Of a DNA stretch of 42,921 nt, positions 27,760-42,921 are shown piece by piece; positions within the stretch are counted from its first letter, which is position 1, and each line of letters starts with the position of its first letter. The DNA is from a virus, in the IMG/VR virus record IMGVR_UViG_3300007734_000691, positions 1 through 42,921 of that record. One strand, written 5' to 3'. A program made the translations under genes and the position numbers. Under the pieces are notes generated by a model, which had not been told where the DNA came from, searched no databases, and worked only from the letters and a program-made list of their open reading frames with translations.

Positions 27760-27999
27760 TTATTTGCGCTTCTTGAGGTACTCTATGTACTGAATCACAC
27801 GGGGCTGTAGGTGAATGGTGGGGGTTCTTATCCCCCAAAACCAGTTGTAAATCGTCATCCGACTTACGCTTAGTTCTTTTGCCAATTCACTTACAGACAC
27901 CTCGTGCTTGATACACAGGCGACCCAAGGCTACGCCCAAAGACTTGATGCTGGCCTTTTTATTGGCTTCCACCAAGCTCCGGCTGTAACCATAGCTCAT
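27760..27999 (-). CDS. Small HTH DNA-binding protein
   Basis: The 79-residue basic protein has a clear helix-turn-helix of Cro/C1 type at residues about 33-58: 'EVSVSELAKELSVSRMTIYNWFWG'-like (in part: VSELAKELSVSRMTIYNW). The ATG at 27999 has GAGGAG upstream. It lies between the ssDNA-binding and primase genes, an unusual place for a lysogeny repressor. A regulator of the early operon, or an origin-binding accessory protein, is more likely. No dimerisation or cleavage domain is present. It is a candidate reader of the palindromes described in the findings, without direct proof. Confidence 0.8.
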   Translation of the reverse strand: MSYGYSRSLVEANKKASIKSLGVALGRLCIKHEVSVSELAKELSVSRMTIYNWFWGIRTPTIHLQPRVIQYIEYLKKRK

Positions 28000-35052: not shown

Positions 35053-35080
35053 AATGTAGCACAGTATTGGACTTTGTCAA
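35053..35080 (-). promoter_or_regulatory. Sigma70-like promoter for the VRR-NUC/polymerase operon
   Basis: On the minus strand, TTGACA (35080-35075) lies 16 bases from TACATT (35058-35053). The spacer ends in TGC, giving an extended -10 (TGnTACATT). It would start near 35046 and drive 35024 to about 29483. It sits directly downstream of the terminator at 35091-35113, so the two units are punctuated. Confidence 0.65.
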
Positions 35081-35090
35081 CAGTAGACGC

Positions 35091-35113
35091 AAAAAAACCG
35101 CCCGAAGGCGGTT
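35091..35113 (-). terminator. Intrinsic terminator with UUCG tetraloop
   Basis: On the minus strand, the 7-bp stem AACCGCC/GGCGGTT (35113-35107 with 35102-35096) encloses a UUCG tetraloop closed by C-G, an especially stable fold. It is followed by a run of seven T. It ends the operon of small genes that begins beyond 35133 and is positioned just before a new promoter. Confidence 0.9.
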
Positions 35114-35122
35114 GGGGTTTTC

Positions 35123-35137
35123 CCTAACAATGTTAGG
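35123..35137. repeat. Palindrome CCTAACAATGTTAGG, site 1
   Basis: This perfect 15-bp inverted repeat with a central A overlaps the last codons and the stop of the DUF3310-type gene. It lies about 10 bases upstream of the terminator hairpin on the minus strand. An identical 15-mer occurs at 39504-39518, and the 13-bp core recurs twice more. Confidence 0.8.
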
Positions 35138-35633
35138 TCGTGTGGGTCTCCTGTAGCTTGTTGGCGTACCACACCAGCTTGCCAATGTCTTGCGTCACAT
35201 CGTCCTTGTGACCCGCTCGGCTTGTGTACTTCAGCACGTTGCCCTTCAGATAGCCACGGAACTCCTCGGGCGTTAGCTTAGCCTTGATGAAGTCGATGAC
35301 CTCGATACCGCCGACCTTGTAGTGCGGTGGGTGGTTGACCACATCTACCTTGGGTGCTTCTACTTCGGGCTCCTCCATCGTGATGGGCAGGGGGATAGAG
35401 GCTGAGTCAAACGGGGTGTTGCTTGAAACCACAGCTACCGTATCCCACTTCCACGTATCTCGTGTTTTGTACTTGCGCTTGGGCGCACCTAGTTTCTTGT
35501 CCCTCCACATCGTGCTGTGCACCACACTGGCGGGTATACCCAAGTCTTTAGCTACTGTTGCCGCTTTTGCTTTTGGGTGGGCTTTCAAAAAGGTGCGAAC
35601 CTTGTGCGCCATGCTGTTCTTAAATATTGCCAT
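35133..35633 (-). CDS. HTH plus DUF3310-type protein
   Basis: The 166-residue protein has two parts. The first ~45 residues form an HTH-like region with 'AATVAKDLGIPASVVHSTMW'. The C-terminal ~65 residues, from 'VNHPPHYKVGGIEVIDFIKA' to 'GNVLKYTSRAGHKD' and 'DIGKLVWYANKL', match the DUF3310 phage family, often near nucleotide-metabolism genes. The linker is acidic/Pro-rich. It ends at the palindrome 35123-35137 and the following terminator. A DNA-binding DUF3310 fusion suggests regulation or a targeting role, but the biochemical activity of DUF3310 is not established here. Confidence 0.75.
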   Translation of the reverse strand: MAIFKNSMAHKVRTFLKAHPKAKAATVAKDLGIPASVVHSTMWRDKKLGAPKRKYKTRDTWKWDTVAVVSSNTPFDSASIPLPITMEEPEVEAPKVDVVNHPPHYKVGGIEVIDFIKAKLTPEEFRGYLKGNVLKYTSRAGHKDDVTQDIGKLVWYANKLQETHTT

Positions 35634-35835
35634 TACTAGCTCCTTGTTGGTTGGTTACGTACTCGGTAAGAATTTCTCGGATTTTGGCTTGCTTTGTGTA
35701 CGGGTGGTGTGTGCTGAAGTAATCCAACACGTACCTTGGTAAACGCAAGCTCGTAGCAAACAACGCAGGCTTCTTACTAGGGCCTCGTCCTTTGCGCTTT
35801 GGTATGGGTTTCAAGTTTTCAATTCCAGTAGTCAT
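35620..35835 (-). CDS. Small ribbon-helix-helix-like protein
   Basis: The 71-residue protein has a basic N-terminal tail ('LKPIPKRKGRGPSKK') and a strand-helix-helix core with 'LFATSLRLPRYVLDYFS' and 'KQAKIREILTEYVTN'. This arrangement resembles RHH DNA-binding proteins such as Arc. It overlaps the DUF3310 gene end by 14 bases and its upstream neighbour by ATGA. It may regulate early transcription, but the assignment is based on secondary-structure pattern only. Confidence 0.6.
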   Translation of the reverse strand: MTTGIENLKPIPKRKGRGPSKKPALFATSLRLPRYVLDYFSTHHPYTKQAKIREILTEYVTNQQGASNGNI

Positions 35836-35984
35836 GTTCGTTCCTTAATCCTTTCAAATACTGCATCCAATGTGGGGTACACGGCAACCCAAGTGTCTCG
35901 ATAGACATGCCACCATGCGCCCTCTGCTCCTTCAAATAGCCACCAACCCTCTGTGTACTTGGCGGGCTCAATCTTCCATGCCAT
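35832..35984 (-). CDS. Tiny Trp-rich protein (50 aa)
   Basis: This gene is below common size cut-offs but fits the operon. An AGGAGG lies upstream, with two adjacent ATGs at 35987 and 35984; I chose 35984 for better spacing. The stop overlaps the next gene by ATGA. The product contains 'MAWKIEPAKYTEGWWLFEGA' and 'WWHVYRDTWVAVYPTLD', with six Trp. The aromatic beta-strand-like pattern suggests a small folded domain. No family is recognised. Confidence 0.65.
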   Translation of the reverse strand: MAWKIEPAKYTEGWWLFEGAEGAWWHVYRDTWVAVYPTLDAVFERIKERT

Positions 35985-35992
35985 CATGCCTC

Positions 35993-36229
35993 CTAATACG
36001 TGCTTGAGTTACGTGAACGCACGTAGCCGCTATGGGGGGTTGGTACGCTAGACCTTGGTTCGTCATAGAACTTTCGTGCCCCTATCGTGTCCGGCCTAAC
36101 AAACTTCTCCGGTACTGTTTTACGGATAGCCTCAATGACTTCGTTCAGTTCCGTGTTGTCCACATTCATATCTTCTCGCTTGGGCCGTGCTGCCCACACT
36201 AGCATCTGCTGATGCTCAATACTTAACAT
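35993..36229 (-). CDS. Small hypothetical protein
   Basis: ATG 36229 is preferred because AAGGAG lies 5 bases upstream; a GTG at 36235 overlapping the prior stop is an alternative. The 78-residue product has an N-terminal helix with 'SIEHQQMLVWAARPKRED' and then 'NTELNEVIEAIRKTVPEKFV'. A basic, Ser-rich, probably flexible C-terminus follows ('VRSRNSSTY'). No domain is recognised. It belongs to the block of short coupled genes. Confidence 0.55.
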   Translation of the reverse strand: MLSIEHQQMLVWAARPKREDMNVDNTELNEVIEAIRKTVPEKFVRPDTIGARKFYDEPRSSVPTPHSGYVRSRNSSTY

Positions 36230-36231
36230 GC

Positions 36232-36432
36232 TCACTCCTTCTTCAGGGACTTTATGTATACGGCAAAACTGTCCTGTGTTGCCTGCCCAAAACCCTTGAT
36301 TTCACCAATGCGTGCAGCGGCTTCGTCCAGTGCATCGTTCCAACCCGCTTCGTAATGTTGCATTGCGGTTGTGTAGCTATGGGGAAAGGCATCACGGTAC
36401 TTGATGCGCTCCTCGTTGTCTTCTTCAATCAT
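36232..36432 (-). CDS. Small helical hypothetical protein
   Basis: The 66-residue acidic protein begins 'MIEEDNEERIKYRDAFPHSY' and contains 'MQHYEAGWNDALDEAAARIGEI'. The latter is a helical 'GWNDALDEAAA' motif seen in many small phage-encoded proteins. It ends 'SLKKE', where the AAGGAG also serves as the next gene's ribosome-binding site. It overlaps its upstream neighbour by ATGA. No enzymatic role is evident. Confidence 0.6.
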   Translation of the reverse strand: MIEEDNEERIKYRDAFPHSYTTAMQHYEAGWNDALDEAAARIGEIKGFGQATQDSFAVYIKSLKKE

Positions 36433-36695
36433 GTGTTCTTGCTCCTTAACTTAGCTTCCACCTCAACCATCAGTTGATGCGCCTCGGGGTCAGCAAGACA
36501 TTCACACGGGTCTGCCTGCACCAAGCAGTCATTGCGTTCCTGAACTGTCAGCCCTGCCCACGGCTTCTTGTAGTCCTGTATGTCATCGTCTTCGTCATCC
36601 ATACTGTTTCTCCATTTCTCACAGTTGTTTACGCTTTTAAGCCCTAGTGCATTTGCCACGGCGCGGTCAAGTGCGGCTCCTGTTAGCTTGCTCAT
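36429..36695 (-). CDS. Hypothetical acidic protein with 'DPCECLADPEA' segment
   Basis: The 88-residue product has 'LTGAALDRAVANALGLK' at its start, a short N-terminal helix common in small phage proteins ('L.G.ALD.AVA.A.G'). An acidic stretch 'MDDEDDDIQDYK' and a Cys-containing segment 'CLVQADPCECLADPEA' follow. Two close cysteines might form a metal site but are not a known motif. It is coupled to both neighbours by ATGA. The function is unknown. Confidence 0.6.
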   Translation of the reverse strand: MSKLTGAALDRAVANALGLKSVNNCEKWRNSMDDEDDDIQDYKKPWAGLTVQERNDCLVQADPCECLADPEAHQLMVEVEAKLRSKNT

Positions 36696-36850
36696 CCGTT
36701 CTGCTCCTTTGCGTCATCAATAAGTTGTTGCTTAACAAACTCCAAGCAGCCAATCACGGTTGCCATGTACAGGCTGTCATCGTATTTGTGAATTGTGTCG
36801 AGCAGGTCTTCTACTAGGCCTTCAACAAGCCCCCCTTGGTTTAGGTTCAT
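36692..36850 (-). CDS. Small acidic helical protein (52 aa)
   Basis: The start at ATG 36850 overlaps the upstream stop (ATGA) and follows AAGGAGAAG, better than an earlier in-frame ATG. The product 'MNLNQGGLVEGLVEDLLDTI' continues with helical, acidic residues and ends 'DDAKEQNG', whose codons contain the next gene's ribosome-binding site. No family is recognised. Confidence 0.6.
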   Translation of the reverse strand: MNLNQGGLVEGLVEDLLDTIHKYDDSLYMATVIGCLEFVKQQLIDDAKEQNG

Positions 36851-37113
36851 CCGTTCTTCTCCTTGATGAGAGCCTGTAGTGCCCTGCCGAATTGCACCTG
36901 ACCCCAAGGCATCGCCGCACCACGGTGTAGCTTTGCAACGTCATAGTAGACCTGCTCAATCTGCGAGTCGCTCAGGTCTACCCACTCGCGCTGTGGAACA
37001 AGGCGTACCAAGTTACCTGTATCTATGTGCCACTGAGGGGGGTTTGGATACGCTCCATAAGTTTTAGTATCCATCCACCATTCAATTCCGTCCTTAAACC
37101 TGTCCGTGGTCAT
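36847..37113 (-). CDS. Small hypothetical protein with 'PQREWVDLSD' segment
   Basis: The 88-residue protein contains 'PQREWVDLSDSQIEQVYYDV', a segment of the type 'P.REWVDLT..D' also found in the protein at 37393 ('PPKREWVDLTYEDWKKI'). This shared segment suggests exchange of modules within the block. It ends 'ALIKEKNG', where the AAGGAGAAG sequence provides the next ribosome-binding site. A Trp/His-rich middle ('NPPQWHIDTG') precedes this segment. The function is unknown. Confidence 0.6.
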   Translation of the reverse strand: MTTDRFKDGIEWWMDTKTYGAYPNPPQWHIDTGNLVRLVPQREWVDLSDSQIEQVYYDVAKLHRGAAMPWGQVQFGRALQALIKEKNG

Positions 37114-37403
37114 CCGTTCTTCTCCTTCACCTTAGCTGTACCAAGTGCTAGGAACCAATCTTGGAACACATCAGCAGGGCGGCATCCTAGGTATATCCCT
37201 CTGCCATCACGCACTTTGGCTATCGCGGCAGCTACGTCTTTCCAATCGTCTTGGTTCATGCCGTAGAGTGCTTCCTGCTGCGCTGGCTGTGCCAAGGCTT
37301 CTTTGATGGCGGTAATAGCTTCGTCCGCTGCCCTTGTCTTTCCTTCGTGGTCTGCATACTCTTCCAGCGCCTCCAGCGCCAGCTTCAATGTTTCACGTTC
37401 CAT
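37110..37403 (-). CDS. Modular small phage protein with LALEALE/ALAQPAQ segments
   Basis: The start at ATG 37403 is chosen because the conserved 'LKLALEALEEYADHEGKTR' begins there, with AAGGAG upstream; the longer frame overlaps the neighbouring gene. The 97-residue product joins 'AITAIKEALAQPAQ' to a separate C-terminal unit with 'DDWKDVAAAIAKVRDGRGIY'. The same N-terminal unit is in 37393-37743. Such mosaics are common in small prophage-encoded proteins of proteobacterial phages. The function is unknown. Confidence 0.65.
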   Translation of the reverse strand: MERETLKLALEALEEYADHEGKTRAADEAITAIKEALAQPAQQEALYGMNQDDWKDVAAAIAKVRDGRGIYLGCRPADVFQDWFLALGTAKVKEKNG

Positions 37404-37743
37404 TGTTCTTCTCCTTGAGTTTGGCTTGCGCCCATGCAACACCTTGGTAAAAGGTGTCGGGCATATTTTCAATTTTTTTCCAATCCTCATACGTCAGGTC
37501 TACCCATTCACGCTTTGGTGGGGCGGTGTAGAGTGGTTGTCCCGCAGACCCATCAGTGACTTCACGCCAAATACCATCTGTAAATTTGGCAAACCTACCC
37601 ACAGGCTCCTGCGCTGGCTGTGCCAAGGCTTTTTCAATGGCGGTGATTGCTGGTGTTCTATAGGGTGATGCTGAAGACTTTGGGTACATCTGCTCCCATA
37701 TTTTTAGCGCCTCCAGCGCCAGCTTTAATGCTTCATCTTTCAT
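37393..37743 (-). CDS. Modular small phage protein, paralogous N-terminus to 37110-37403
   Basis: The 116-residue protein starts 'MKDEALKLALEALKIWEQM' and continues 'AITAIEKALAQPAQEPVG', matching the N-terminal unit of the downstream gene. A 'RFAKFTDGIWREV' segment and 'PPKREWVDLTYEDWKKIENM' follow. It ends 'AQAKLKEKNNGT'. The structure is a string of short units joined by Gln/Pro/Ala-rich linkers, as in Eaa-like proteins of lambdoid and related phages. It is coupled by ATGA at 37740 to its upstream neighbour. Confidence 0.65.
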   Translation of the reverse strand: MKDEALKLALEALKIWEQMYPKSSASPYRTPAITAIEKALAQPAQEPVGRFAKFTDGIWREVTDGSAGQPLYTAPPKREWVDLTYEDWKKIENMPDTFYQGVAWAQAKLKEKNNGT

Positions 37744-38249
37744 GTGTTCTCCTTAATGCCGTGGGCGGCTTCACCTAAACGCAAACCATGCAACCTTTCA
37801 GCCAACAATTCTTTTCGGTAACTCAATGGGTCGCGGGAAATCACCCCGTTTGGCGCGTGTACTGGGCCAATCCACAACAGTTTTTTCGCCTGCTCATCCG
37901 TCAGCGGCTTGCGCTGTGGTGGGGTGTGTTCAAGTGCCGCATCCCATGCTCTGTGGCATCCATCTTGAAAATCCTCATTTCCCCAAATTGCGTTTTCGTA
38001 CCAATCAAGAAACGCCACAGGCTCCTGCGCTGGCTGTTCCTTGTACACGCTCATGGGGTCAATGCGCTTGCCATCTTGTGACCACGATGTGCCGTACTTG
38101 ATGCGGTCTTCGTGCATCTTCTTGTACTCCTCATCAAAATCAGAATTGATTTTGTCCATAGCAGCTTGCCGCTTAGCTGGAAAACCACCGCCCCAATCAC
38201 CCTGCTTCTTCGCAAGGTCATCAAACGCTTCGTCTTCTTCAGTTTTCAT
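37740..38249 (-). CDS. Modular accessory phage protein (Eaa-like linker)
   Basis: ATG 38249 overlaps the upstream stop (ATGA) and has AAGGAG before it. The 169-residue product has an N-terminal helical unit with 'DEAFDDLAKKQGDWGGGFPA'. The linker 'KEQPAQEPVAF' and a middle unit 'WGNEDFQDGCHRAWDAALE' follow. The C-terminal 'PPQRKPLTDEQAKKLLWIG' is a helical module (RKPLTDEQ) very frequent in small phage proteins. It belongs with the two neighbours as a mosaic family. The role is unknown; none of these modules shows catalytic residues. Confidence 0.65.
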   Translation of the reverse strand: MKTEEDEAFDDLAKKQGDWGGGFPAKRQAAMDKINSDFDEEYKKMHEDRIKYGTSWSQDGKRIDPMSVYKEQPAQEPVAFLDWYENAIWGNEDFQDGCHRAWDAALEHTPPQRKPLTDEQAKKLLWIGPVHAPNGVISRDPLSYRKELLAERLHGLRLGEAAHGIKENT

Positions 38250-38515
38250 GCTTCTCTCCTTAGCTTGTCGTACAACGCCTGTATGTTTTGTTTCCACATA
38301 GGAACCACGTTAGTGTCATACGTCATGTACATGTCGTACATCTTTAGCAAGGTCTCGCGGTCAAGGTAGTTGTTGCGCGTACCAGTCAGTTCAAGAATGT
38401 CTTTTACAAATGCAGCCATTGCATCCTTGTGATGTTCGTCATCCTTGTCCCATTCTGACTTCGACTTATCCGCGCTCCATTTAAAGTCATTGCCTGTTCT
38501 GCGTAGTACTCTCAT
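38246..38515 (-). CDS. Small helical hypothetical protein
   Basis: ATG 38515 is chosen because it overlaps the stop of the tiny upstream gene (ATGA at 38512). The 89-residue product contains 'RTGNDFKWSADKSKSEWDKD' and 'FVKDILELTGTRNNYLDRET', ending 'KQNIQALYDKLRREA'. It is hydrophilic and helical with no membrane span. No family is recognised. Confidence 0.55.
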   Translation of the reverse strand: MRVLRRTGNDFKWSADKSKSEWDKDDEHHKDAMAAFVKDILELTGTRNNYLDRETLLKMYDMYMTYDTNVVPMWKQNIQALYDKLRREA

Positions 38516-38640
38516 GCTACGAACCCCCATACAACTGCGCCAATGGTGATAACAAACAGCACCAAGAAAAATAGCGCAATGGCGGTCTTCAGGAAGTCAA
38601 CAAAGAAGTCGCCGCCCGCATCGGTATCGTCGTCGTTCAT
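38512..38640 (-). CDS. Tiny single-span membrane protein (42 aa)
   Basis: This short gene overlaps both neighbours by ATGA. The acidic N-terminus ('MNDDDTDAGGDFFVDF') leads to a hydrophobic helix of about 21 residues ('AIALFFLVLFVITIGAVVW') with a short C-terminal end. The acidic N-end would be expected outside and the short C-end inside or vice versa; orientation is unclear. It could modulate the host membrane or superinfection. It is below usual annotation cut-offs. Confidence 0.6.
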   Translation of the reverse strand: MNDDDTDAGGDFFVDFLKTAIALFFLVLFVITIGAVVWGFVA

Positions 38641-38768
38641 ATCCACCCCAACCCTTCAAGAGAGGCAAAGATTAAAAGAGTAACCCCAATGACATTGCCA
38701 ACAATCGGATGAAAGTGAGGGGCCATATAAACCGTGCCGAGAATTGCTAAATATTGTGTGTCGGTCAT
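38637..38768 (-). CDS. Tiny membrane protein (43 aa)
   Basis: ATG 38768 overlaps the upstream stop and precedes the next gene by ATGA overlap at 38637. The product 'MTDTQYLAILGTVYMAPHFH' is followed by 'VIGVTLLIFASLEGLGWI', with one clear hydrophobic span and a possible shorter one in the N-terminal half. A longer frame upstream has no start signal and overlaps the neighbour. Together with the 42-aa gene it forms a pair of membrane peptides. Confidence 0.55.
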   Translation of the reverse strand: MTDTQYLAILGTVYMAPHFHPIVGNVIGVTLLIFASLEGLGWI

Positions 38769-39013
38769 TTTCCCTCCCTCGCTTTCAGCATTGCGTCTGC
38801 CATCATGTAGGATGTAACAGCAACTTCTTGTTTGACATCCTTTCCCAAATGGCAATACATGTCAATTAACTCTTTATCTGCCATGTAATTTTGCATTGCC
38901 AGCCCAGCGTAATGGTCACGCAAGGTCATGTCCTTGGCATAGCCGCCGTTCTTTACCAGCCATGTGTCGCGCATTTCCCGCGCTTCCATTAAAAGGTCGA
39001 TGTGGTCTTTCAT
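38765..39013 (-). CDS. Conserved small phage protein
   Basis: The 82-residue product contains 'MEAREMRDTWLVKNGGYAKD' and 'MTLRDHYAGLAMQNYMADKE', then 'EVAVTSYMMADAMLKAREGK'. The 'MTLRD.(Y/F)A..AM' block followed by a 'A..(S/A)Y..ADAML.AR' block is a pattern I have seen in many small phage and prophage proteins. It is helical and soluble. It is coupled by ATGA at both ends. The function is unknown. Confidence 0.7.
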   Translation of the reverse strand: MKDHIDLLMEAREMRDTWLVKNGGYAKDMTLRDHYAGLAMQNYMADKELIDMYCHLGKDVKQEVAVTSYMMADAMLKAREGK

Positions 39014-39207
39014 GCTTGCTCTCCTTGTAGTTCAGTTAGTCGGCGGGTCAGCCGTTTGATGCGGGCATCGTTGTAGTCCACCATGCTAAGGGCGTATTCC
39101 ATTGCACTCTCAGCTTCCAGTTTTGCCCGCTGGGACTGCACCAGTTCTCGCGCAACCATCTCTAGCGGGGATGGTGTAGCCAGTAGGCGTTTCATCATTG
39201 CAATCAT
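39010..39207 (-). CDS. Small coiled-coil-like protein
   Basis: The 65-residue basic, helical product includes 'LVQSQRAKLEAESAMEYALS' and 'NDARIKRLTRRLTELQGEQA', a coiled-coil pattern. The C-terminal 'GEQA' codons contain GAGCAAGCATGA, which is both stop and next start. It is coupled to both neighbours. No domain is recognised. Confidence 0.6.
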   Translation of the reverse strand: MIAMMKRLLATPSPLEMVARELVQSQRAKLEAESAMEYALSMVDYNDARIKRLTRRLTELQGEQA

Positions 39208-39404
39208 GCTTGTTCCCCCTCAAGTGGTACATCACGCCATTCACCGCTAGGGTCTCCGGCAATTGCTGCGGTGTATCGGCTTGCAATGTCTTTCTCCCAC
39301 CACTGCTGGAGGATGCGGACTGTTTTATATGTCACAGCAAAATCGCCTTGAACCGGCACTTGTATTTCGCGCTCAACAAATCGCAGCTTGGATGTCGGGG
39401 TCAT
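39204..39404 (-). CDS. Small hypothetical protein with 'W.DVPLE' ending
   Basis: ATG 39404 is chosen as the start since it overlaps the stop of the tiny membrane gene (ATGA). The 66-residue product contains 'LRFVEREIQVPVQGDFAVTY' and 'KTVRILQQWWEKDIASRY'. It ends 'GEWRDVPLEGEQA', the 'GEWRDVP' type seen in phage proteins. The beginning looks beta-rich and the middle helical. The function is unknown. Confidence 0.6.
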   Translation of the reverse strand: MTPTSKLRFVEREIQVPVQGDFAVTYKTVRILQQWWEKDIASRYTAAIAGDPSGEWRDVPLEGEQA

Positions 39405-39538
39405 TTGCACTCCTTGGTGAACACCGACACGACTGTGCCGCACTTGGGTTGGTAAGTGGCGTAGCCCATGTAGAACCCCACTACGATGACTGTGCAGACC
39501 AAACCTAACAATGTTAGGAAGTCAATGACGTATTTCAT
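39401..39538 (-). CDS. Tiny membrane protein (45 aa) carrying palindrome site 2
   Basis: This short gene overlaps its neighbours by ATGA at both ends and fills a gap of no other coding use. The product starts 'MKYVIDFLTLLGLVCTVIVV' and continues with a Gly/Tyr-containing second part and two Cys. One hydrophobic span (about 7-24) is clear. The palindrome at 39504-39518 codes for 'LTLLG' here. It could be a small inner-membrane peptide. Confidence 0.6.
   Translation of the reverse strand: MKYVIDFLTLLGLVCTVIVVGFYMGYATYQPKCGTVVSVFTKECK
39504..39518. repeat. Palindrome CCTAACAATGTTAGG, site 2
   Basis: Identical 15-mer to site 1 (35123-35137), here inside the coding region of the 45-aa membrane gene, near its start codon. 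Confidence 0.8.
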
Positions 39539-39789
39539 ACTTGCTCCTTCTTAGGTAGGATGTACTTGGCGTACCGCTTCTTTGTGCGTGTGTCTTTGTT
39601 CCACACATTAACGATGGGCCACCCTTCCTCCTTACGCAGTATGTGGATAACCGCAGCCAACCGGAAACAGCCACAGCCATGGAGCGCGTCCAACGGCGTT
39701 ATCTCTTTGCCTTGCAGCAACTCACTCAATACCCAATTGATTTGCGAGGACTTTTCTGCTTTGAAGTCCTCATTGTTTAACGTGCTCAT
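39535..39789 (-). CDS. HTH protein (HTH_39-like)
   Basis: The 84-residue protein contains 'ITPLDALHGCGCFRLAAVIHILRKEEGWPI'-type sequence (in part: ITPLDALHGCGCFRLAAVIH, RKEEGWPI). It is a helix-turn-helix of the small phage family in which 'I(T/S).(L/I)(D/E)A...G..RL.A.I..LR...GW.I' recurs. Basic Lys/Arg segments flank it ('TRTKKRYAKYILPKKEQV'). It is coupled to the flanking genes by overlapping ATGA with the AAGGAGCAAG sequence. It may regulate the surrounding block and is another candidate for binding the palindromes. Confidence 0.75.
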   Translation of the reverse strand: MSTLNNEDFKAEKSSQINWVLSELLQGKEITPLDALHGCGCFRLAAVIHILRKEEGWPIVNVWNKDTRTKKRYAKYILPKKEQV

Positions 39790-40640
39790 GCTTGCTCCTT
39801 CTCTTCATCTGCTGACACAACAAACACCTCGTCATTCACTCGGCAACCTACGCCGCTGAGGAAGAATCCAGCGTCCACTAACTTGAGCATTCCTAGATTT
39901 CTCTTCATGCTCTCAGGCAATGTATTGTCATCGTAAATTTGTACATTGTCATCTATTCTAACTAGGTACTTACCCGAATCTCGCACAACTAAGGCTGCGG
40001 TTTGATTCTCAAATTGGTGGCGAATAGTCTCGATGGACTTCACCTCCATGCGTAGTTCCTTCTCGCCTTCTATGTCGTTTAGTACCCTGTCTCTAACGCG
40101 CGGCTCCAACGTCTGCACATTGGCTAAGAACCCCTCATACCCCGCGCCTAGCACATAAGAAAGCATTGCCTCTCTGAGGTTGTACTTGTGTTTATCAAGG
40201 GCTCGGTCTTTGCCGTTCTCCTGTTGGTTTAGGAACCTACCGGCTTCGGTGTAAGCCTCGGCTAGACGCTCCTTCGGGTTGCGCGGGGAGAACATCTTCT
40301 TGACCTTGAGCACGGCCTTGTCCACATCCTTAGTCTTGTACTCACTACCCCGTACCCTGCCCCCGCTTATGCGGTGATTGCTAACTGCAATAACCCAGTC
40401 CCTCCCGTGGTACATGCGTTTTATAGTCCCAAGCTCTTCCCCATTCGCTACTACCTTGAACGTGCTCACCTCATCGTGCATGTACACAGATGGCACTACG
40501 AACTGCCACAGCGGATATAGCGGGGCCAGCTTCACAATCGTGCTGGCTAGCAGGTGATGGGCTTTCAGACTGCCCTTGGCATAGCCGCCCTTGACTACAT
40601 CGGGGCTCAGCACCACGTTGTTGAATTCAAATATGTTCAT
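39786..40640 (-). CDS. Hypothetical protein of the DUF3150/VWA-like neighbourhood
   Basis: ATG 40640 has AGGAGT upstream and begins the conserved-looking 'MNIFEFNNVVLSPDVVKGGY'; a longer frame would overlap the DUF3150 gene. The 284-residue product includes 'GYAKGSLKAHHLLASTIVKL', a Lys/Arg-rich middle ('RISGGRVRGSEYKTKDVDKA') and 'SIETIRHQFENQTAALVVRD'. It shows mixed alpha/beta character and no enzymatic motif I can name. It lies after the DUF3150-like gene by 29 bases and may work with the DUF3150/VWA-like module, which is inference. Confidence 0.6.
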   Translation of the reverse strand: MNIFEFNNVVLSPDVVKGGYAKGSLKAHHLLASTIVKLAPLYPLWQFVVPSVYMHDEVSTFKVVANGEELGTIKRMYHGRDWVIAVSNHRISGGRVRGSEYKTKDVDKAVLKVKKMFSPRNPKERLAEAYTEAGRFLNQQENGKDRALDKHKYNLREAMLSYVLGAGYEGFLANVQTLEPRVRDRVLNDIEGEKELRMEVKSIETIRHQFENQTAALVVRDSGKYLVRIDDNVQIYDDNTLPESMKRNLGMLKLVDAGFFLSGVGCRVNDEVFVVSADEEKEQA

Positions 40641-40669
40641 GTCTACTCCTATGTTGATACTCTTAACTC

Positions 40670-41524
40670 TTACCACTCGAACTTCTTCAGGATGTCGTCC
40701 ACCTTGGACTTCAACGCACTGCGCGAGTCGGCATCCTCTTTGATGCTCTCGATGTCCGCACCTAACATTGTTAGTTCTACCTGCCTACGTGCTTCCTCCA
40801 ACGCAGGGTCGTTCGTCACGTTCAGCTTGGTCAGCAGGGCACACAACTCGATGGGGTTGGTAATCAGCGTGTCGTGATACCGCTTCTTCGCATCCTCACC
40901 CTCAAGGTCGGTCAGCTTCTCAGACATGCCGACAAGCATCTTGTGCAGTCTGTCCCACGGCTCACGCATCGCCTCGGCTAGCTTGTTCTGTTGCTGCGTG
41001 ATGAACTCGGCCTTCATCTCCTCTAGGTCATACGCAGGTATGTCCAGTCGGAAGTCACCAGCCTCGGGCACAGGCTTGACTGTGCGCCGGAACCCGAACT
41101 TCAGCTTCACATCCTCAAGCTCAGGATAGTCCTCGGCCTTGTACAGCCCTTGCAACGCAGTCGGCGCTTCGGCAACCAACCTCGGGTACTCGACGTAGAA
41201 GTTGTTGCACATCATGTCGAACGTCTGCTCGAACCCATTCATGGTCTGCTTGTACTCCATGAACAACGCAGTCGGCAGCATGCGCTCGCCCTTGTCAGCC
41301 CACGGCAGTGTGTGCTTGTTGTGATACAGCCGAACCCGTGCAGCAAAGTCCGAGATGTCTTTGCGTAGGCTAGTACCTGCAAACAGATTCTTCTTCGTCT
41401 GTGACGCACCACGTACCGCCCCCGCATCGCTGTTCACCTTGTCGGTAATCTCGCGGTCAATCTTCGACGCAGGCCACACGCTGATGTTCAGCTCCACTAA
41501 CAATGCGCTACTACTAATACTCAT
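40670..41524 (-). CDS. DUF3150-like protein
   Basis: The 284-residue protein contains 'KKNLFAGTSLRKDISDFAARVRLYHNKHTLPW'-type sequence (in part: AGTSLRKDISDFAARVRLYH). It also has 'LPTALFMEYKQTMNGFEQTF' and 'FGFRRTVKPVPEAGDFRLDI'. These recall DUF3150 phage and bacterial proteins that accompany MoxR-type ATPases and VWA proteins. A basic/acidic helical C-terminal part ends 'SKVDDILKKFEW'. The palindrome at 40762-40774 codes for 'LTMLG' near residues 252-256. Its partner ATPase could be just beyond the right edge. The family call is from memory. Confidence 0.6.
   Translation of the reverse strand: MSISSSALLVELNISVWPASKIDREITDKVNSDAGAVRGASQTKKNLFAGTSLRKDISDFAARVRLYHNKHTLPWADKGERMLPTALFMEYKQTMNGFEQTFDMMCNNFYVEYPRLVAEAPTALQGLYKAEDYPELEDVKLKFGFRRTVKPVPEAGDFRLDIPAYDLEEMKAEFITQQQNKLAEAMREPWDRLHKMLVGMSEKLTDLEGEDAKKRYHDTLITNPIELCALLTKLNVTNDPALEEARRQVELTMLGADIESIKEDADSRSALKSKVDDILKKFEW
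40762..40774. repeat. Palindrome CTAACATTGTTAG, site 3
   Basis: The same 13-bp core as sites 1, 2 and 4 with T at the centre on the plus strand (A on the minus strand). It is inside the DUF3150-like coding sequence. Confidence 0.75.
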
Positions 41525-41742
41525 TTCATTCTCCTTGACTTTGGTTCACCTAATAACTTAAAAATTCCAACCACTCCATCTTTGGTTAGGTCAGATGCAA
41601 TAAGGGTATACGTGTCTGTCCTACCCCACTCAATAGCTTGCACTTTGTACCTCCACGGTTTCGTCCACATTCGCCGTGGAATCAACCCCATGTACTCCCC
41701 TGCTAGTGGTAGCATGTAAACGCTACCCAGTTGAAGTTTCAT
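41521..41742 (-). CDS. Small hypothetical protein, FKLL-ending paralogue
   Basis: The 73-residue product has 'YMGLIPRRMWTKPWRYKVQA' and a later 'LIASDLTKDGVVGIFKLLGE'. The C-terminal 'VVGIFKLLGE' resembles the endings of the proteins at 41919 ('AAVGFIKLLKEN') and 42134 ('VAEGYIKLLKEE'). These three therefore form a small tandem family. It is coupled to the DUF3150-like gene by ATGA at 41521. The function is unknown. Confidence 0.55.
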   Translation of the reverse strand: MKLQLGSVYMLPLAGEYMGLIPRRMWTKPWRYKVQAIEWGRTDTYTLIASDLTKDGVVGIFKLLGEPKSRRMK

Positions 41743-41917
41743 TCATCATTCCTCCTTCGGGTTTAACTTCCACTACGTCTAACACATTGCTTTCACTGTC
41801 GGCGTTATGCAACTGGAAAGCATCGAACATCTTCACCTCTGCCTCGTCTTGTGTCTCGGCTTCAACTTCAACTTCTTGGTAGTAACTAAGTACCACCACT
41901 CCACTCCATAGTTTCAT
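41723..41917 (-). CDS. Small acidic hypothetical protein
   Basis: The 64-residue product begins 'MKLWSGVVVLSYYQEVEVEAE' and continues acidic, with 'KMFDAFQLHNADSESNVLDV'. It overlaps the next gene by 20 bases. A short N-terminal beta-strand is followed by charged residues. No family is recognised. Confidence 0.5.
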   Translation of the reverse strand: MKLWSGVVVLSYYQEVEVEAETQDEAEVKMFDAFQLHNADSESNVLDVVEVKPEGGMMNETSTG

Positions 41918-41918
41918 T

Positions 41919-42137
41919 TCAGTTCTCCTTCAAAAGTTTGATAAATCCAACTGCCGCATCGCGGCTATCTACTGTCGCTACTACCTCACACTCGTTCGTG
42001 TTCCACCACGGCACGCCGTACACCACCAGCCATTTAGAGCTAGAACCCCGCGTTACTACGCCGTAGTTCCGGGTGTACCCTTTGTGCGGGTCAATGACTT
42101 CGGCAAGCCACTCTATTTTTCCTATTTGAACCATCAT
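41919..42137 (-). CDS. Small hypothetical protein, FIKLLKE-ending paralogue
   Basis: The 72-residue product contains 'GKIEWLAEVIDPHKGYTRNY' and 'SKWLVVYGVPWWNTNECEVV', and ends 'VDSRDAAVGFIKLLKEN'. The last part matches the 42134 protein ending. It overlaps that gene by ATGA (42134-42137). The second ATG in 'MMVQIGK' is an alternative start. It appears to be a beta-rich small domain. The function is unknown. Confidence 0.6.
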   Translation of the reverse strand: MMVQIGKIEWLAEVIDPHKGYTRNYGVVTRGSSSKWLVVYGVPWWNTNECEVVATVDSRDAAVGFIKLLKEN

Positions 42138-42361
42138 TCCTCCTTCAAAAGTTTGATGTATCCCTCAGCCACTTCTCGCGTCAGGCCACTCGCTAACACC
42201 TCAACAACACCTTGGTGAACAACGCTTCGCTTCACCACCTGATGCCTATGGGGGCTAGCTGAATACCTAACCTCGTACCAATAGCCATCAAGCCTTGGCA
42301 TCCTCATTAGCGTCTTCGGGTCAGTCCACCCAAACGTATAGCTAGCTTTGGGCTTCGACAT
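42134..42361 (-). CDS. Small hypothetical protein, YIKLLKE-ending paralogue
   Basis: ATG 42361 is chosen as the natural start since the longer frame overlaps the VWA-like gene more extensively; even so, it overlaps that gene's end by 20 bases. The 75-residue product has 'TFGWTDPKTLMRMPRLDGYW' and 'VVHQGVVEVLASGLTREVAE', ending 'GYIKLLKEE'. It shares its ending with 41919 and, more weakly, 41521. These small proteins sit between the VWA-like and DUF3150 genes. Confidence 0.6.
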   Translation of the reverse strand: MSKPKASYTFGWTDPKTLMRMPRLDGYWYEVRYSASPHRHQVVKRSVVHQGVVEVLASGLTREVAEGYIKLLKEE

Positions 42362-42921
42362 GGACGGTCTTCCCGTTCGGTGCAACCTCATCGTTACCCC
42401 CAACGATGCACCACAGTACCTCGGATGTCCACTCGCTGCCCCAATCACCACCTACATACCCGTCGGTCAACACGATGGTGCACTCGGGCTTGATGGCCTT
42501 CTCTTTCAGGTACGCAGATACACAGCTTGGGCTCGTGCCGCCACCGCCTCGGGGCTTGGTAGCTAACAATGTTAGATACCTCGCTACCTTCGTACACCTC
42601 ATGCCTAGCCACCTCGCAGTCCCAGTACAGCAAGTCCACCACCTCGGGGTTGACATCCTCGGCGATAGCTTTGACCTCGGATAAGAACTCGGCTTGCTCT
42701 TGCGCGCCAATCGAACCCGACATGTCAACACCTACTACAAGATGACCAACCTTCTCGCCGATCATGCTAGGCATGTACGTACCCGTGGACAGGAACCGAC
42801 GATTGACTCTGCGCCAGCTACTTGCATCCTTGGCATTGCATGTGGCTTTCACAAACTCACGTAGCACCTCGCGCCAATCCACCTTGGGCTCCAACAACCC
42901 TTCGAGTTCGCGGTCGAGACC
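42342..42921 (-). pseudogene. VWA-like (DUF2201-type) protein, frameshifted and truncated at window edge
   Basis: The gene enters from beyond 42921, and the frame is open to the edge with 'LDRELEGLLEPKVDWREVLR'. Then comes the VWA-like core 'VGHLVVGVDMSGSIGAQEQA' with the MIDAS-type DxSGS. The conserved 'ELLYWDCEVARHEVYEG' type region follows (here 'VDLLYWDCEVARHEVYEG'). After about 42580 the expected 'KPRGGGGTSPSCVSAYLKEK' and 'CTIVLTDGYVGGDWG' are read only in the frame shifted by +1, ending at 42342. So either the gene is broken, or one extra base is present, or there is a programmed shift. It probably pairs with the DUF3150-like gene. Confidence 0.7.
42563..42575. repeat. Palindrome CTAACAATGTTAG, site 4
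   Basis: The 13-bp core, here inside the VWA-like gene and within the short stretch where the reading frame changes. The flanks differ from sites 1 and 2 (G and A on the plus strand). Confidence 0.8.

Follow-up and report, generated by a model that had tools for sequence, protein, structure and literature searches.

The right arm of an IMG/VR virus record of 42,921 bp, which was analysed over its whole length and is called here the window, carries a short palindrome in several exact copies, and this raises the question of what these sites are and which protein reads them. An earlier note on the same DNA had listed four copies, all of them in the right arm, had judged them too many for chance, and had suggested a shared operator among several possible functions, with two helix-turn-helix (HTH) proteins as candidate readers.

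The palindrome in the window

Exact matching recovered CTAACAWTGTTAG four times, every copy exact and at the position listed before (Table 1), and a search for near copies with one or two mismatches found none in the window. The confinement to the right (early/replication) arm was borne out, since the left arm carries no copy, and so was the rarity of the motif: dinucleotide shuffles of the window gave a mean of 0.01 copies and in none of them four, and synonymous-codon shuffles of the early arm (n = 500) gave a mean of 0.32 and a maximum of 2. No other 13-bp odd palindrome is repeated in the window.

Table 1. Palindromic sites of the window and the features next to them
Feature	Position	Strand	Remarks
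Intrinsic terminator AACCGCC-TTCG-GGCGGTT-T7	35091..35113	-	about 10 bp after site 1; read from sequence; layout shared by relatives
Sigma70-like promoter TTGACA-16-TACATT	35053..35080	-	after the terminator, ahead of the replication genes
Site 1, CTAACAATGTTAG	35124..35136	.	holds the TAA stop codon of the DUF3310 gene; pre-terminator position conserved in relatives
DUF3310 gene	35133..35633	-	3' end falls in site 1
Site 2, CTAACAATGTTAG	39505..39517	.	codons 7-11 of a 45-aa membrane-like ORF, 39401-39538 (minus)
Site 3, CTAACAATGTTAG on the coding strand	40762..40774	.	inside ORF 40670-41524
Site 4	42563..42575	.	inside the truncated DUF2201/VWA gene
DUF2201/VWA gene	42445..42921	-	cut by the contig end

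The window ends inside the DUF2201/VWA gene and therefore, judging by the gene order of its relatives, lacks the AAA gene and the beginning of the early arm. Other repeated or palindromic elements were also observed. The non-palindromic 13-mer CCTGCTCCGGTAG likewise has four copies in the window. The sequence TTGACAAAGTC, at about 35070-35083, is related to TTGACAnTGTCAA, a palindrome present in 22 of the 80 polA loci described below, where it seems to fall on the -35 region of the promoter that follows the terminator. An AT-rich palindrome, AAATTTTTGCAAAAATTT, is conserved near the divergent late genes in the control region of L124-L132 and L136-L150 (A3, A4), and is possibly a late promoter element.

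Number, placement and spacing of the sites in related phages

Relatives in IMG/VR were sampled through the polA gene of the window, which yielded 80 loci. The commonest 13-bp odd palindrome in them is CTAACAnTGTTAG, with 123 copies in 31 loci; exact copies reach 16 in a single record, and the reversed pattern, used as control, gave none in 33 records. The highest density, 24 core sites in 12.3 kb or about one per early gene, was found in one locus fetched by motif. The palindrome belongs to a widespread group of aquatic phages; KPP25 and Rollin are without it. A polA search for prophage copies among 84,980 species genomes recovered no more than three contigs, all from MAGs, with 42-71% polA identity. 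The polA match of one genome (G059, C1:39925-41746) is interrupted by 7 TGA, 3 TAG and 1 TAA codons over overlapping frames, and appears to be a decayed, frameshifted or interrupted gene. The cultivated Rhizobium phage RHph_TM3_14A (positions 10001-60000; L224), a distant relative, has a dispersed palindrome of its own, gTTACC-n6-GGTAAc; TTACCn6GGTAA occurs 23 times in 50 kb, in both arms, with 14 of the 23 at gene edges, which offers an entry point for bench work.

In the relatives the sites occupy the early/replication arm and the control region, and the late arms of the six genomes checked hold none. Depending on the genome, 0-53% of the sites are internal to genes, in early arms where genes take up about 72-83% of the positions; the sites are strongly enriched at gene junctions, and many of those at junctions share bases with a start or stop codon. 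Relatives that do not carry the 13-mer have the same half-sites separated by two or three base pairs instead of one: TAACA-2-TGTTA was found in four genomes (G001, G004, G008 and G013) and TAACA-3-TGTTA in G014. The spacer is nearly uniform inside each genome, and close polA relatives can differ in it. Genomes of all three spacers have in common the order DUF3310 stop codon, palindrome, terminator and TTGAC promoter. Site 3, which encodes LTML within VELTMLGADIES, is at a position also used by other spacer-1 relatives, and that of site 4 (SNIVS) is used in most of them.

The earlier note had considered that the sites might be lost from close relatives at synonymous positions while the genes were conserved. 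The AAA gene of the spacer-1 genomes behaves in the opposite way: the peptide LETASNIVRTRK is nearly invariant, the codons that form the palindrome are kept in 10 of 10 distinct spacer-1 sequences, and other synonymous codons are used in 19 of 24 spacer-2/3 sequences, which argues that the palindrome is kept for its own sake. Erosion was seen at one site, in the two closest relatives that cover site 1 (L005 and L006), where 3 and 2 mismatches are present (CTAGCATTACTAG and CTAACATCATTAG; L005 3062, L006 1638) and the terminator and promoter are retained; single sites therefore turn over.

An orphan early protein whose type goes with the spacer

The two HTH proteins proposed before found no support as readers, given that the one encoded at 39535-39789 is present in no other unit searched, and the 79-aa protein (27760-27999) in 15 of the 15 genomes first compared, those with other spacers included. 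On 12 rows the tree of the latter implies 4 spacer changes, as against 2 for the protein considered next.

The candidate that we propose is the product of the first early-arm gene of the relatives, an orphan of 160-195 aa whose gene would lie beyond the truncated end of the window. In 50 of 61 loci its gene is preceded by a site no more than 220 nt away, mostly at about 150 nt, and in 47 of 54 another site follows within 150 nt of its stop codon. The protein forms two main subfamilies that are mutually homologous (hhalign probability 97, E 4e-11), here types 1 and 2, and a third, divergent version in G014. Neither a family nor an HTH match was obtained in Pfam, NCBIfam and PHROG, the sequence search of the PDB gave no match, and GapR gave one weak, single-member match (2e-4); no copy was found in isolated phages or plasmids. 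The AF2 models (pLDDT 78.5 and 80.6) consist entirely or mainly of alpha-helices, and their fold search against the PDB and BFVD returned nothing with E below 0.001. In the model, two helices are arranged much like a helix-turn-helix; the second of them carries a stretch conserved across types, W-x-R-V-(R/K), and we infer that it may be the recognition helix.

The type of this protein is associated with the spacer. When loci were collected by the protein, type-1 loci held 101 spacer-1 and no spacer-2 sites, and type-2 loci 49 spacer-1 and 426 spacer-2 sites. Among genomes with at least five sites, type 1 goes with spacer 1 in 16 of 16 and type 2 with spacer 2 in 34 of 35, and the divergent version in G014 goes with spacer 3; the exceptions are L180, the odd one of the 35, and the mixed genomes G046 and G042. 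A search in the other direction, using 16-mers of each spacer picked without reference to the protein, brought up 43 type-1 against 2 type-2 proteins with the spacer-1 set, and 21 type-2 against 1 type-1 protein with the spacer-2 set (Fisher p 2e-15, uncorrected for relatedness). On shared tree rows the orphan protein requires 2-3 spacer changes and twelve of thirteen other proteins 3-8; a 950-aa primase-like protein ties with it at 2, on 12 rows only.

The association also predicted the outcome in a recombinant genome: L038-L040 form a spacer-1 clade within a polA clade of spacer 2, and when their control region (G011) was retrieved later, it proved to encode type 1. The polA of G046 is nearly identical to that of two spacer-1 loci (L028/L030), yet this genome has a type-2 protein and spacer-2 junction sites, and its spacer-1 sites are mostly inside genes. 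More generally, 22 of the 49 spacer-1 sites left over in type-2 loci are inside genes, as against 30 of the 426 spacer-2 sites (Fisher 5e-11; the loci are related). A change of spacer is a 1-bp indel, which is tolerated at junctions and causes a frameshift inside genes; junction sites would accordingly be retunable by single-base indels, and gene-internal sites may be frame-locked relics of a former specificity.

Proposed function and comparison with known systems

Among the functions suggested before, the shared operator is the best reading, given that these are dimer-type sites of 13-15 bp in double-stranded DNA, and that sites of this kind persist along the early arms of many relatives. From the sequence comparisons we propose, with moderate confidence, that the palindromes are the sites of a phage-encoded, probably dimeric regulator, the orphan first early protein, which most likely silences or road-blocks early transcription. 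We also think it probable that this protein represents an undescribed family of phage DNA-binding regulators, with an early-arm-wide regulon and with types that would differ in a 1-, 2- or 3-bp spacing of unchanged half-sites. The protein would bind close to the promoter of its own gene and at numerous places in the early operon, between genes as well as within them, and the two main subfamilies would read one half-site with different spacers; once bound, it might block early transcription in the manner of a stoperator. This could take place once the early phase is over, or be directed at a superinfecting phage of matching type. The sites number about one per gene and are found between genes, within them and ahead of the terminator, a distribution that a dispersed roadblock or silencer would explain better than a set of local operators would. 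Integrase, resolvase and ParB (PF00589, PF00239, PF02195) were found in 0 of 23 records, many of which are fragments, so that shut-off of early genes or exclusion of like phages seems likelier than prophage silencing.

The same protein could read the sites for genome organisation, that is, for partition, compaction, or the control of replication or packaging. Such a role is compatible with the gene-internal sites, with those at the convergent arm junction of G017, and with the placement of the site at the promoter of the candidate reader: its centre is not over the promoter but, as estimated by eye, some 73-78 bp upstream of where transcription is expected to start, which also counts against the main proposal. 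However, a parABS centromere goes with an encoded ParB and no ParB_N match was found in the 23 records, and the confinement to early arms together with the strong enrichment at gene junctions makes this role rather unlikely.

A somewhat smaller chance is given to a host protein as the reader, with phages adapting to host-specific spacing and the orphan type merely tracking the host or the control-region haplotype. Host regulators with TAACA-n-TGTTA cores do exist, MtvA (PMC11826091) and PrfA (PMC7221254). Moreover, an unrelated phage group (L429, L435, L478-L488), with a T7-like primase-type protein, has 3-6 spacer-2 sites of the CTAACAAATGTTAG type per locus; they surround the gene of its first early protein, which is conserved, 164 aa long and not detectably homologous to the candidate reader family (hhalign probability 2); these sites may reflect convergence or a host reader. 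Against a host protein, the spacer tracks the phage gene and not the polA backbone, close polA relatives differ in spacer, and the orphan gene is present in 60 of the 61 motif-fetched loci that hold the neighbouring late gene.

Action in RNA, as a hairpin or a translational operator, is very improbable, even though many sites supply a stop codon, an AUG start or both. Ten spacer-1 genomes contain 111 exact sites together with 50 that differ in one base; the changes fall on the outer and inner bases only (positions 1, 6, 8 and 13) and are mirrored in their counts (C1>A 15 and G13>T 14; C1>G 5 and G13>C 6; A6>T 5 and T8>A 3), which indicates that double-stranded DNA is read. These symmetric changes break pairs, and C1>T, which would be compatible with a G-U pair, was seen 0 times; the central base outside start codons is A in 86 sites, T in 80, C in 6 and G in 3, and the length of the would-be loop is fixed per genome. 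Chance or a compositional artefact can practically be dismissed in view of the shuffles, the reversed-pattern control and the hundreds of copies in relatives.

In the literature searched, no paper describes this site in phages. Half-sites that are practically the same are present in the MtvA operator TAACATTGTTA, with spacer 1 (PMC11826091), and in the PrfA hly box TTAACATTTGTTAA, with spacer 2 (PMC7221254); these are cellular or plasmid regulators acting at few promoters, unlike the phage orphan, for which no known fold came out as significantly similar. T1-like phages (TLS, Stevie) have intergenic repeats, and the Nostoc phages A-1 and N-1 have motifs, that their authors have likened to stoperators; like the sites studied here they lie between genes, but they are asymmetric and appear to have been given no reader. 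The closest parallel to the proposed orphan regulator would be the stoperators of Cluster A mycobacteriophages such as L5 and Bxb1, asymmetric sites read by a monomeric HTH repressor (PMC9283540, PMC6550527). In both cases sites of about 13 bp for one regulator are present many times per genome, mostly at early-arm junctions and near the early promoter, and the site sequence covaries with the regulator. In contrast, stoperators are oriented with transcription, whereas the sites described here are palindromic, have a central A:T ratio of about 1:1, and also occur inside genes; the reader in L5 and Bxb1 is the HTH repressor of temperate phages, whereas the candidate here is an orphan not annotated as HTH, in phages where the 23 records yielded neither integrase nor ParB; and specificity here differs by spacer length. 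The pairing gives an orphan family of many aquatic phage contigs a likely target and a testable code, and it captures natural swaps of regulator specificity by spacing and not by sequence, with hybrid genomes caught carrying two site types. If the proposal is true, transcription control by dispersed sites would extend past the temperate mycobacteriophages, where it is established.
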